From Acidimicrobiia bacterium (GTDB lineage Bacteria; Actinomycetota; Acidimicrobiia; Spongiisociales; Spongiisociaceae): a stretch of DNA of 64,000 bases. Positions 43,279-63,189 of this stretch are shown one piece after another. Position numbers and translations under genes: made by a program. The notes below the pieces were generated by a model. It worked only from the letters and a program-made list of their open reading frames with translations. It did not search any database and was not told where the DNA came from. The stretch lies in contig VXMM01000066.1 of the NCBI GenBank assembly GCA_009841105.1, positions 1 to 64,000 on the forward strand, given 5' to 3'. The number at the start of each line of letters is the position of its first letter. Position 1 is the stretch's first letter.

Positions 43279-43656
43279 CTAAGCAACGAGCGTCGAGACC
43301 GGATAGGCAAGAACCTTCCGGTCGCCGGTTACCAGCGTGAGATCCGCGGCAAGGGCTTGGGCTACTAGAAGCCGGTCGAGCGGATCGGCATGTAAGGGTG
43401 GGAGAGTCCGTAGGCCCATTGCATGGCTGGCGGTGAGGTCCAGCCGTGGCGCGCCGAGTCGTACTGTGAGCGTGTGGCAACTGTGGCTCAGCCTCAGTTT
43501 CCCGAGTTTGCGCTCTATCTCGATCTCCGCCACCGAGATGGACGAAACGTAGAGATCATTGTATGGGTCCTCAATAGCGTCAGTTGCCTCGATGGACAGT
43601 CGTTCGGGAGCAGTGTGGGCCCAGAGAAGCACATGGGTGTCAAGCAGCAGTTTCAC
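43279..43656 (-). CDS. PIN-domain toxin (VapC-like)
   Basis: 125 residues with the PIN acidic residues: D6 in LLLDTHVLLW, E in SVAEIEIE, D in DPLDRLLVAQA and D in VTGDRKV. VapC toxins are Mg-dependent RNases. It follows its antitoxin by 15 nt on the same strand. Confidence 0.9.
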   Translation of the reverse strand: MKLLLDTHVLLWAHTAPERLSIEATDAIEDPYNDLYVSSISVAEIEIERKLGKLRLSHSCHTLTVRLGAPRLDLTASHAMGLRTLPPLHADPLDRLLVAQALAADLTLVTGDRKVLAYPVSTLVA

Positions 43657-44069: not shown

Positions 44070-45248
44070 CTAGTCGCGGACCGCCATGGTGGTGGGGTGC
44101 TCGTTGAGCTTGACGCCGCCTTCCTCGGTGCAGAGGATGATGTCCTCGACGCGGACGCCCACCCGGCCCGGCCAGAAGACCGACGGCTCGAGGGTGAAGG
44201 TCATACCGGCTTCGAGGGGGGTGTCGTCCTCCGGTGAGATAAAGGGCTCCTCGTGGACGTCGAGGCCGATGCAATGGCCGGTCCTGTGGCGGAACCAATC
44301 TCCGTATCCCGCGTCCACAATCACTTGCCGGGTGGCGCGGTGCACCTCGGACGCCAGCACGCCCGGCCGGGCAGCCTTCATCCCGGCCTGCTGGGCGGCC
44401 ATGACCACCTCGTACACGTGGCGGTACTCGTCGTCAGGTTCGCCGATCCGGATGGTTCGGCCGAAGTCCGAGCAGTAGCCCTGCACCACCGCGCCGAAAT
44501 CAAAGGACACCCCCACGCCCGGCCGCAATTCCCGCTGGGAGAGCCGAACGTTGGCATCCCGGTCGTCGCCAGGACCCATCCCCCAGACCGCAGTGTCGAA
44601 CGACCAGGTACGGGAACCGAGCCGGAGCATTTGGTAGTTCACCTCCTCGGCCAGTTCCAGTTCGGTGACTCCGCTTGAGATGCGGGCCTTGGTCTCCTCC
44701 ATCGCTCCGTCCGCAATATGGCAAGCGCGGCGCAACAGGCGCAGTTCGTCGGCGCTCTTGATCCTCCGGAGGCGGTTGACCAGGCGGCTGGCGTTGACCA
44801 ACTTAGGATTCCGCAGCTCCTCGAGGAGGTTCATCGTGGCCGAAGCCCAGGTCCGGGCGCCGACCGCCAGCGTGTCTGGTGAAGCGAAAGACTGGGCTAC
44901 CCGCGAGAACAAAGCGTGTCCGTCGTCCATCTCGCTCACGCTGACCACCTCACCGGGAACTCCTTCTGGCAGGTCGAATTCGACGTAGTTGCGAGGGAGG
45001 ATGAAGGCCGGATCACGACCCGGCGCCAGGAAGGCCCCGGCTACCCAGCCGTGGGCATAGTTGACATCACCGAAGGTCGGCACTCGCCGCTGGATGCCGG
45101 TCAGGTATTCGAGATCGGCGCCGATCGGGAGCCATACCAGATCGATTCCCGCCTCGTCGAGCACGGTGTCAAGGGCGAGACGCCGGGCACGGTGGTCGAA
45201 ATCGATGGCGTCCATATCCAGCGGCCAGTCTAGACCGTTGGTCTGCAA
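44070..45248 (-). CDS. M24-family Xaa-Pro dipeptidase-like protein
   Basis: 392 residues with all dimetal ligands of the family: the two aspartates in FDFGAVVQGYCSDFGR, histidine in GHCIGLDVHE and glutamates in TLEPSVF and RVEDI. It should cleave X-Pro dipeptides or related imide bonds. Contrast the altered M24 homologue at 33436. The start is uncertain: TTG at 45248 or ATG at 45215; neither has a good ribosome site. It is the last gene of the leftward run, 115 bp after the methyltransferase. Confidence 0.85.
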   Translation of the reverse strand: MQTNGLDWPLDMDAIDFDHRARRLALDTVLDEAGIDLVWLPIGADLEYLTGIQRRVPTFGDVNYAHGWVAGAFLAPGRDPAFILPRNYVEFDLPEGVPGEVVSVSEMDDGHALFSRVAQSFASPDTLAVGARTWASATMNLLEELRNPKLVNASRLVNRLRRIKSADELRLLRRACHIADGAMEETKARISSGVTELELAEEVNYQMLRLGSRTWSFDTAVWGMGPGDDRDANVRLSQRELRPGVGVSFDFGAVVQGYCSDFGRTIRIGEPDDEYRHVYEVVMAAQQAGMKAARPGVLASEVHRATRQVIVDAGYGDWFRHRTGHCIGLDVHEEPFISPEDDTPLEAGMTFTLEPSVFWPGRVGVRVEDIILCTEEGGVKLNEHPTTMAVRD

Positions 45249-45363: not shown

Positions 45364-46389
45364 TCAGGTCCTGGCGCCGCGGCGGCGCCGGCCTCTCTGG
45401 ACCGCAGCAGGACGGGATGGGCGCGGTGCGTGGGGTAGGCGGCGAGCGATCTCCTCGCGGGTGACACTCCGGGTGGAACGGTGGAAATCGACTGCCTCTC
45501 TTATGGCGGCTATGTGTCGGGGTTTGCTCCCGCAACATGCGCCGATCAACCCTGCCCCCGCCCGGATCGCCAGATCGACGTAGGTGGGCATGATCTCGGG
45601 ACCATCGGGATAGGCCAGGTGTCCCTCGGTGTAGGCGGGAAGGCCGCAGTTGGCCTTCGCCACGATGGCCGTTCCCGGGTCCGCCTTGGCCAGCTCATTC
45701 ACGGCAAGCACCACGTCGCCGGCGCCCACGCCGCAGTTGGCCCCTACCGCCGCCGGACGGACGGCCTGAGCGCGGCTCCACGCGGCGAGTTGCTCGGGAC
45801 GAACACCCATCATTGTCCGGCCGTGGGTGTCGAAGGTCATCGTGGCCACGACAGGCGTGCGGAAGGCTGTAGCCGCCTCGTAGGCCGCTTCCAACTCCTC
45901 CCGGCTCGACATGGTCTCGATCCATACCACGTCGACGCCACCGCGCACCAGAGCGTCGATCTGCTCGCTGAACACCTCGACGGCGGTGTCACGCTCCAGC
46001 GGCCCGAGCGGCGCCAGCAGGTCGCCCGTCGGTCCGACGCTCCCGGCTACCGCCACGGTCCTTTCGAGCCGGTCGGTGATCTGCCGGAGCAGCGCCACGG
46101 CCGCCAGGTTGAGTTCAGCAACCCGGTCCTGAAGACCGTGCAGGATGAGCCGCCGCCGGTTGGCTCCGAACGTGTTGGTGAGGACGATGTCGCATCCCGC
46201 CTCCAGGAAGCCCGAATGCGCTTCGATCACCATCGCCGGACACTCCACGCTCAGCAGCTCGGGACAGGCGCCCGGTGGCATTCCCAGCGCGAAGAGGCTG
46301 GTTCCCAAGCCTCCGTCGGCCACCAGGATGGCCGACTCCGCGAGTAGTCGGTCAAACGAGGTGTTCACTAGCGGGTTCGATGGGGACAC
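45364..46389 (-). CDS. Homocysteine S-methyltransferase family protein
   Basis: 341 residues of the zinc/thiol methyltransferase family: GGLGTSL near 26, NTFGANRRRL, the zinc cysteine in GANCGVG and the Cys-Cys pair in GACCGSKP. Such enzymes methylate homocysteine to methionine using S-methylmethionine, betaine or another donor. The tail is Arg-rich. GTG at 46389 follows GGAGGAGG at close spacing. A SAM-II-like aptamer lies in the leader about 110 nt upstream, linking expression to S-adenosylmethionine. Confidence 0.88.
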   Translation of the reverse strand: MSPSNPLVNTSFDRLLAESAILVADGGLGTSLFALGMPPGACPELLSVECPAMVIEAHSGFLEAGCDIVLTNTFGANRRRLILHGLQDRVAELNLAAVALLRQITDRLERTVAVAGSVGPTGDLLAPLGPLERDTAVEVFSEQIDALVRGGVDVVWIETMSSREELEAAYEAATAFRTPVVATMTFDTHGRTMMGVRPEQLAAWSRAQAVRPAAVGANCGVGAGDVVLAVNELAKADPGTAIVAKANCGLPAYTEGHLAYPDGPEIMPTYVDLAIRAGAGLIGACCGSKPRHIAAIREAVDFHRSTRSVTREEIARRLPHAPRPSRPAAVQRGRRRRGART

Positions 46390-46472
46390 GGCCTCCTCCG
46401 TTTCCGCCAGGATGCCGGTGCTCCGAGGGGCTCCTCCACGAGAGAAGGGCCGCCCAACTTCTGCGGCCCCAT
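46368..46472 (-). CDS. Possible leader ORF between SAM-II-like aptamer and methyltransferase
   Basis: 34 codons starting MGPQKLGGPS behind AGGAA (11 nt before the ATG), ending in TAG just inside the methyltransferase gene, in a different frame. The peptide is Arg/Pro-rich and looks like no protein; if translated its role would be coupling of the aptamer to the downstream GTG. A perfect hairpin GGGCCGC/GCGGCCC (46447-46469) lies at its start. Confidence 0.3.
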   Translation of the reverse strand: MGPQKLGGPSLVEEPLGAPASWRKRRRPCPHRTR

Positions 46473-46496
46473 GTGGTGTTCCTGTAGAAACGCCCC

Positions 46497-46552
46497 GGTC
46501 GCTTTAGCTGGTCTTCTAGAGCGCCCGCAAGCTGACTGATCAAATCGGCGCT
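46497..46552 (-). promoter_or_regulatory. Candidate SAM-II riboswitch aptamer
   Basis: On the minus strand the leader reads P1 AGCGCC (46552-46547), then GATTT directly after it, TTGC (46530-46527), P1' GGCGCT (46525-46520) and AGCTAAAG (46509-46502). The order and spacing match my recollection of the SAM-II (SAM_alpha) consensus: P1, GAUUU, UUGC, P1', GCUAAA. The pseudoknot also forms: TTGC with GC(T)AA leaving the ligand-contacting U bulged, extended by GC/GC and GTC/GAC. The downstream gene is a homocysteine methyltransferase, a natural target. Confidence 0.7.
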
Positions 46553-46563
46553 GTCTTTCGAAA

Positions 46564-46569
46564 AGTGTA
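46564..46569 (-). promoter_or_regulatory. -10 box in front of the SAM-II-like aptamer
   Basis: TACACT, 11 nt upstream of the first aptamer stem, so the RNA would begin 3-5 nt before the aptamer, as expected for a riboswitch. No convincing -35 hexamer. Confidence 0.45.
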
Positions 46570-62400: not shown

Positions 62401-63189
62401 ATGGGGTATGACACGAAGCCTCCAGACGGCTACGACCCCCGGGCGTACCCACCGGTCGCCGTCACCGTGGACGTGGTCACGTTCACCATCGTTGCCGACA
62501 ACCTCCAGATACTTCTAATCCGGCGCGGGCAGGCTCCACATAGGGGACGTTGGGCGCTGCCGGGCGGCTTCGTGCGCCAGAACGAGGACCTCGAGGCGGC
62601 GGCCCTGCGCGAACTCCACGAGGAGACAGCGGTTACCGCCGAGCCGCGCCATCTCGAGCAACTCGGCACGTACGGGAGACCCGACCGCGACCCCCGGATG
62701 CGGGTGGTCACCGTCGCCTACTGGGCGATCCTCGCCAACCTCCCCGAGCCCAAGGGAGGCGGAGACGCGGCCGAAGCCAGCCTCTTCCCCGTCGTGATGG
62801 TCGAAGCCCAGGCTCTCAAGTTGGCCTTCGACCACGGCAAGATCATCAAGGAGGCGGTGGAGAGGGTGCGCTCAAAGCTCGAATACACCACCCTCGCCGC
62901 GCAATTCTGTCCACCCGAGTTCACTATCAGCCAGTTGCGGCGGGTCTACGAAGTGGTGTGGAATGCCCGCATCGACCCGGCCAACTTCCACCGCAAGGTC
63001 ACCACCAGCCCCGACTTCCTCCGCTCGACCGGCGACCTCACCGATCCGAGAGCACGAGGCGGGCGTCCAGCCAGGATGTACAGCCCCGGTGAGGCGGAGT
63101 ACATTTCCTCACCGATCATGAGATCCCCCTCCAGCCCGACGCCTCGCCGTAGACGCCCCCCTCCGAAGGAACCTCCGGCTGATCGGTGA
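62401..63189 (+). CDS. NrtR-like Nudix-domain transcriptional regulator
   Basis: 262 residues: a Nudix domain with box GGFVRQNEDLEAAALRELHEE near residue 55 and a C-terminal winged helix (about 165-225) typical of NrtR, whose Nudix domain senses ADP-ribose and controls NAD metabolism genes. The tail is Pro/Arg-rich. It is divergent from the VWA/ARPP-1 gene, so it probably controls that gene and itself. ATG at 62401 chosen since the N-terminal extension is not family-like. No NAD biosynthesis gene is seen in the window. Confidence 0.85.
   Translation: MGYDTKPPDGYDPRAYPPVAVTVDVVTFTIVADNLQILLIRRGQAPHRGRWALPGGFVRQNEDLEAAALRELHEETAVTAEPRHLEQLGTYGRPDRDPRMRVVTVAYWAILANLPEPKGGGDAAEASLFPVVMVEAQALKLAFDHGKIIKEAVERVRSKLEYTTLAAQFCPPEFTISQLRRVYEVVWNARIDPANFHRKVTTSPDFLRSTGDLTDPRARGGRPARMYSPGEAEYISSPIMRSPSSPTPRRRRPPPKEPPADR

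Follow-up and report, generated by a model that had tools for sequence, protein, structure and literature searches.

In the genome of an Acidimicrobiia bacterium (GCA_009841105.1), a homocysteine methyltransferase gene is preceded by a leader in which a SAM-II element had been predicted from the letters of the DNA. This leader raises two questions: does it contain a genuine member of the SAM-II class, which is usually encountered in Alphaproteobacteria and which literature reports place in alpha-, beta- and gammaproteobacteria and in Bacteroidetes, and how would such an element control the gene? The window analysed here is the stretch of 64,000 nucleotides from positions 1 to 64,000 of the contig VXMM01000066.1, and both the element and the gene are carried by its minus strand. 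The element is a real SAM-II riboswitch, of a known class that is new for the lineage within the literature that could be searched. We estimate at about 85% the probability that it controls a betaine-homocysteine methyltransferase gene as an OFF switch at the level of transcription.

A SAM-II aptamer in front of the bmt gene

The whole window was compared with all Rfam models. The model RF00521 (SAM_alpha, corresponding to SAM-II) matched positions 46483-46561 of the minus strand with 42.7 bits, for a gathering threshold of 36 and an E-value of 2.9e-6, and the match spans the model positions 1-79, which represent its whole length. The original prediction of a SAM-II element before a homocysteine methyltransferase gene is therefore borne out by the covariance search, and the identity of the gene can be sharpened to betaine-homocysteine S-methyltransferase (bmt). 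The bounds proposed at 46497-46569 do contain the predicted elements, but the aptamer proper runs past the lower bound, to about 46483. A covariance model named R1, built from 33 aligned aptamers (relatives and the window sequence), attributes 81.3 bits to this locus and 8.0 bits to the next best match in the window. The window contains a single occurrence of a motif pattern derived from the relatives, against none in 100 shuffles. RF00521 is found as a single copy in the genome, at the bmt leader, and 14 control genomes gave no match. Nothing else credible was recovered from Rfam on the aptamer stretch; the sRNA Bp2_287, on the opposite strand, was rejected as a sub-threshold match (21.2 bits for a gathering threshold of 70) to the reverse complement of the aptamer. 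Elsewhere in the window, the very short model HIV-1_SD matches the 19 bases 62442-62460 of the minus strand with 31.6 bits and an E-value of 0.009, a match that is surely fortuitous.

On the minus strand from 46569 to 46440, the leader is composed of the box TACACT, the sequence AGCGCC-GATTTGATCAGTCAGCTTGCG-GGCGCT, the sequence TCTAGAAGACC-AGCTAAAGCGACCGGGG and the hairpin GGGGCCGC/GCGGCCC. The helix P1 is formed by AGCGCC (46547-46552) and GGCGCT (46520-46525). The motif L1, GATTT (46542-46546), includes the three U of the SAM pocket (U10-U12, numbering of 2QWY as reference; conserved residues according to PMC3764141). The P2 pseudoknot associates the 5' strand GTC-A-GC-TTGC (46527-46536), whose TTGC (46527-46530) corresponds to U20-C23, with the 3' strand GC-T-AA-A-GC-GAC (46498-46508), whose GCUAAA corresponds to G42-A47. 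With AGCTAAAG at 46502-46509, each of the predicted elements (P1, GATTT, TTGC, AGCTAAAG, the pseudoknot and TACACT) has thus been located. In SAM-II, 13 pocket nucleotides are completely conserved, namely U10-12, U20, U21, G22, C23, G42, C43, U44, A45, A46 and A47 (PMC3764141); all 13 are present in the window aptamer, in GAUUU, UUGC and GCUAAA. Over four families of the order, hardly any change is seen in the aptamer core.

Covariation among SAM-II sequences is strong in P1 and weaker in P2a. In an alignment of 70 SAM-II aptamers of the GCGCC and classical CGUGG types, the six P1 pairs all show changes on both sides and 99% of the cells are paired, a level of covariation reached by 0 of 500 shuffles; this alignment is biased towards P1, since the P1 model served to fit it, yet slides and shuffles destroy P1. 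For P2a, where GUC/GAC is for instance replaced by AUC/GAU, the matched duplex energy is -112.6 versus -87.4 after permutation (sd 9.0, fraction 0.0034), and the Acidimicrobiia set alone gives p = 0.057; these permutation figures, like the one given below for the antiterminator, are lenient since related genomes are not independent. The core pairs of P2b never vary within the order and are thus uninformative by covariation. The leaders of relatives, whose loss of the pairings would have spoken against the prediction, keep the P1 and P2 core in all cases, with compensatory changes.

The element could alternatively be a SAM-V or another H-type pseudoknot of different ligand specificity (SAH or SAM/SAH, for example) that merely resembles SAM-II. 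The binding core of SAM-V is nearly identical to that of SAM-II (PMC6061858), and bhmT of Pelagibacter is controlled by SAM-V (PMC2704228). The SAM-V model RF01826 (gathering threshold of 41 bits), however, gives no match in the window even at E-values up to 10, while RF00521 passes its threshold. SAM-V is moreover translational, adjoins the start codon at about 10 nt and occludes the Shine-Dalgarno sequence, whereas here about 100 nt separate the P2 3' strand from the downstream Shine-Dalgarno GGAGGA (46394-46399), and the extended P2a and the downstream terminator are traits of SAM-II. This alternative thus appears very improbable, and a SAM-II/SAM-V tandem was rejected together with SAM-V itself, no SAM-V match having been obtained. 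A close known counterpart of the SAM-II reading is found in Ca. Pelagibacter ubique, where a SAM-II located before bhmT binds SAM (KD of 1.2 uM) and is reported to terminate transcription (PMC5069961). The likeness with our locus lies in a transcriptional SAM-II before a betaine-homocysteine methyltransferase gene (PMC2704228, PMC5069961); the differences are the phylum and the SAM-V that follows in Ca. Pelagibacter ubique, where it controls translation, and that is missing here.

Promoter and expression platform

The box TACACT (46564-46569) corresponds to a -10 element located 11 nt upstream of P1. A TANNNT motif is present 7-14 nt before the GCGCC core of P1 in 36 of the 38 homologous leaders, for 6.2 expected from shuffles, and transcription therefore probably starts at the aptamer. 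A consensus scan of the window leader gave no match to a -35 element.

Downstream of the aptamer, folding predicts the terminator-like hairpin GGGGCCGC-N9-GCGGCCCU (46446-46470, -15.7 kcal/mol), which is followed by the U-poor tail UCUCUCGU (46438-46445, 4 U in 8). With a criterion of -13 kcal/mol or better and then four or more U within 8 nt, 34 of the 38 leaders possess such a hairpin, against 18% of shuffles; the four leaders devoid of it include L101, L104 and L183. The U-tract of the window is weak and its hairpin was not flagged by a stock terminator scan; the leaders L085, L094 and L112 possess a better U-tract.

A competing structure is predicted between the antiterminator 5' strand CCAGCUAAAGCGACCG (46496-46511), which overlaps the P2 3' strand, and the 3' strand GGGCCGCAGAAGUUGG (46454-46469), which overlaps the 5' arm and the loop of the terminator (duplex energy of -14.0 kcal/mol). 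In the window, it is the aptamer 3' strand CCAGCUAAAGCGACC that is complementary to GGGCCGCAGAAGUUGG, and CAGCU pairs with AGUUG in the centroid fold of a transcript truncated ahead of the 3' arm of the terminator. In L099, CAGCUAAAGCG has a perfect partner in CGCUUUAGCUG. Over nine groups of relatives, the sum of the matched antiterminator energies is -110.1 versus -95.7 for permuted partners (sd 4.2), a value reached in 0 of 20000 permutations. Since the P2 pseudoknot and the antiterminator share bases, they are mutually exclusive. The free energy of the isolated whole leader is not below that of shuffles, and MFE is thus uninformative.

The support computed for a transcriptional OFF switch consists of the family membership, the conservation of the structure, the fixed gene linkage, the -10 box, the hairpin and the antiterminator complementarity. 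In the mechanism that we propose, transcription would start a few bases before P1. When SAM is high, S-adenosylmethionine, the presumed ligand, would bind the P2 major groove and lock the pseudoknot, and the 3' strand GCUAAAGCGAC would become unavailable for downstream pairing; the GGGGCCGC/GCGGCCC hairpin would then form and transcription would stop before bmt in the cell. At low SAM, this 3' strand would pair with the 5' arm and the loop of the hairpin to give the antiterminator, bmt would be transcribed and methionine would be restored, the whole constituting a SAM feedback on methionine synthesis. SAM-II riboswitches are mostly transcriptional (PMC6061858, PMC2258182). The weak U-tract of the window, the four leaders devoid of a qualifying hairpin and the free energy of the leader count against this mechanism.

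The same aptamer could instead act on translation if the bmt ribosome binding site were masked by the pseudoknot in its SAM-bound, locked state or by the hairpin further downstream. Riboswitches of Actinomycetota are mostly translational and the transcriptional mode is rare among them (PMC12452182, PMC13273304), the U-tract of the window is weak, and in the f4 leaders L101 and L104, devoid of terminator, the start codon is about 50-66 nt after the aptamer. We nevertheless consider translational control unlikely: the Shine-Dalgarno of the window, which precedes a GTG start located 56 nt after the hairpin, lies outside P2, and most leaders have at a conserved place a U-tailed hairpin that is mutually exclusive with the antiterminator. 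Attenuation by a leader peptide or by a protein, with a resemblance to SAM-II due to chance or to a relic, would find an argument in the ATG at 46472, which opens a short frame running through the hairpin. This ATG is absent from L087, L091 and L092 and was rejected as not kept in relatives; furthermore, the core hardly varies over four families, the score and the linkage to bmt exclude chance, and such an explanation is barely credible beside transcriptional control by a SAM-II riboswitch.

Distribution of the aptamer and methionine physiology

The host order is an uncultured order of Acidimicrobiia (Actinomycetota). RF00521 matches 13 of the 15 genomes of the family and 33 of the 138 genomes of the order, many relatives being at 26-36 bits, below the gathering threshold. 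Outside the order, no match was found among 395 genomes of the class, and among 296 genomes of the phylum only the genome of the window was recovered; the first-look filters of these class and phylum scans were stricter, so that isolated weak members could be missed. The Rfam cut-off is passed in 15 of the 138 genomes of the order versus 37 with strong matches to the tuned model R1, which shows that many aptamers of the GCGCC subtype escape the Rfam threshold. Two weak R1 matches of the order (G022 and G076, 23 bits) were set aside as they have no bmt match.

Each of the 37 aptamer genomes possesses a bmt homologue with one aptamer just upstream, in the same direction, and the co-occurrence of both is highly significant (Fisher p 4e-24). 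There are 11 genomes that have bmt without aptamer: six of one genus (g45), G052, G071, G018 where bmt is cut by the contig edge, and G037 and G047 that contain only distant homologues. The genome G007, from the same genus as the window genome, has neither aptamer nor bmt. In a quick protein tree, the bmt genes of the order group apart from the other homologues with a low support (0.32), and the aptamer-less members are nested inside it as two clusters, a pattern compatible with one gain of the aptamer and about two losses. The prediction that the lineage might be one where SAM-II is little described agrees with the literature searched, where we found no report of SAM-II in Actinomycetota or Acidimicrobiia and no description of it in this lineage with a fixed target gene, which is weak evidence as subscription papers and the Rfam hit list were outside its scope. 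The range of the class, considered to lie largely in Proteobacteria and Bacteroidota, is thus widened to Actinomycetota, where a single gene is its constant target, and the bmt leader represents a ready candidate for a SAM-responsive leader. In G120 (C494; L174:2549-2610, minus strand), a degenerate SAM-II with GGCAAAG in place of GCTAAAG precedes an EamA-type transporter; the contig also carries a normal bmt aptamer at a distance of about 2.3 kb.

The bmt gene (45364-46389, minus strand, GTG start) encodes a protein of 341 aa with the Pfam domain S-methyl_trans (PF02574), which scores 371.4 bits against the NCBIfam model NF005718/PRK07534 (cut-off of 338). Its closest relatives, at 85-88%, come from MAGs labelled Acidimicrobiia. 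Since the PRK07534 cut-off is passed and those of MmuM and MetH are not, betaine is likely the methyl donor. Downstream on the same strand, a gene for a creatinase-like M24 metallopeptidase (44070-45248) is possibly co-transcribed with bmt. A small PIN-domain-like protein, of VapC type by eye, is encoded at 43279-43656 of the minus strand.

The genome of the window contains no MetH above the family cut-off, and its matches to Meth_synt_2 (PF01717) are partial and in proteins much shorter than MetE. MetH (E <= 1e-100) was detected in 4 of the 37 aptamer genomes versus 49 of the 101 other genomes of the order (p 3e-5, uncorrected for relatedness). As most aptamer genomes are devoid of MetH, many of them may methylate homocysteine mainly through bmt. 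The riboswitch also points to betaine-dependent methylation as the step at which methionine synthesis may be regulated in these uncultured Acidimicrobiia. In G000 (C10, C56 and C60), separate MetH-like pieces with pterin-binding and cobalamin-binding parts are present with no full MetH, which suggests corrinoid methyltransferase systems.

Alphaproteobacterial counterparts and origin

The element shares with the alphaproteobacterial SAM-II the pseudoknot, the pocket nucleotides, the place before a methionine-pathway gene and the terminator platform. It differs from them by its phylum and by its target, which is always bmt here and metY, metZ, metA or metX in Alphaproteobacteria. In its P1, GCGCC/GGCGC replaces CGUGG/CCACG, and the RF00521 score drops as a result to about 26-46 bits. 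The GCGCC-type aptamer is common in Alphaproteobacteria too: R1 matches 125 of 385 genomes, the weaker matches including classical SAM-II. In 30 of the best alphaproteobacterial loci, this aptamer precedes metY-like genes (eight of them with metY as best match) and metZ-like genes, and a reading of the sequences also reveals sulfonate-type (SsuA-like) and methionine-type (MetQ/MetN) transporters and genes of sulfite-reductase or siroheme type. Such settings concern the loci L230-L259 and L221-L224. RF00521 attributes 29-44 bits to a sample of 20 of the alphaproteobacterial loci, about half of them being below gathering.

Rfam was run on 60 of 80 retrieved bmt relatives and R1 on 74 relatives beyond the close group, and in these scans the homologues outside the order show no credible aptamer beside bmt. 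A transfer of aptamer and bmt as one unit from Alphaproteobacteria was rejected on this ground. To judge from these sequences, the aptamer and bmt were therefore probably joined within the lineage, after the aptamer came from, or was shared with, Alphaproteobacteria. A broader scenario, to which we give slightly less than even odds, is that a single order of Acidimicrobiia received SAM-II from Alphaproteobacteria with bmt as its fixed target, and that SAM came to exert its principal feedback on methionine synthesis through this switch where MetH was lost or lacking; its transcriptional mode would then stand out in a phylum whose other riboswitches are mostly translational.

Two SAM-II-like aptamers separated by about 70 nt were observed in the alphaproteobacterial loci L230 (1367-1563, minus strand) and L235 (2855-3047, plus strand), as possible tandem riboswitches. 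In L231 (788-856, minus strand), a SAM-V match of 35.8 bits, below the gathering threshold of 41, is located about 0.65 kb from a GCGCC-type SAM-II on the same strand.
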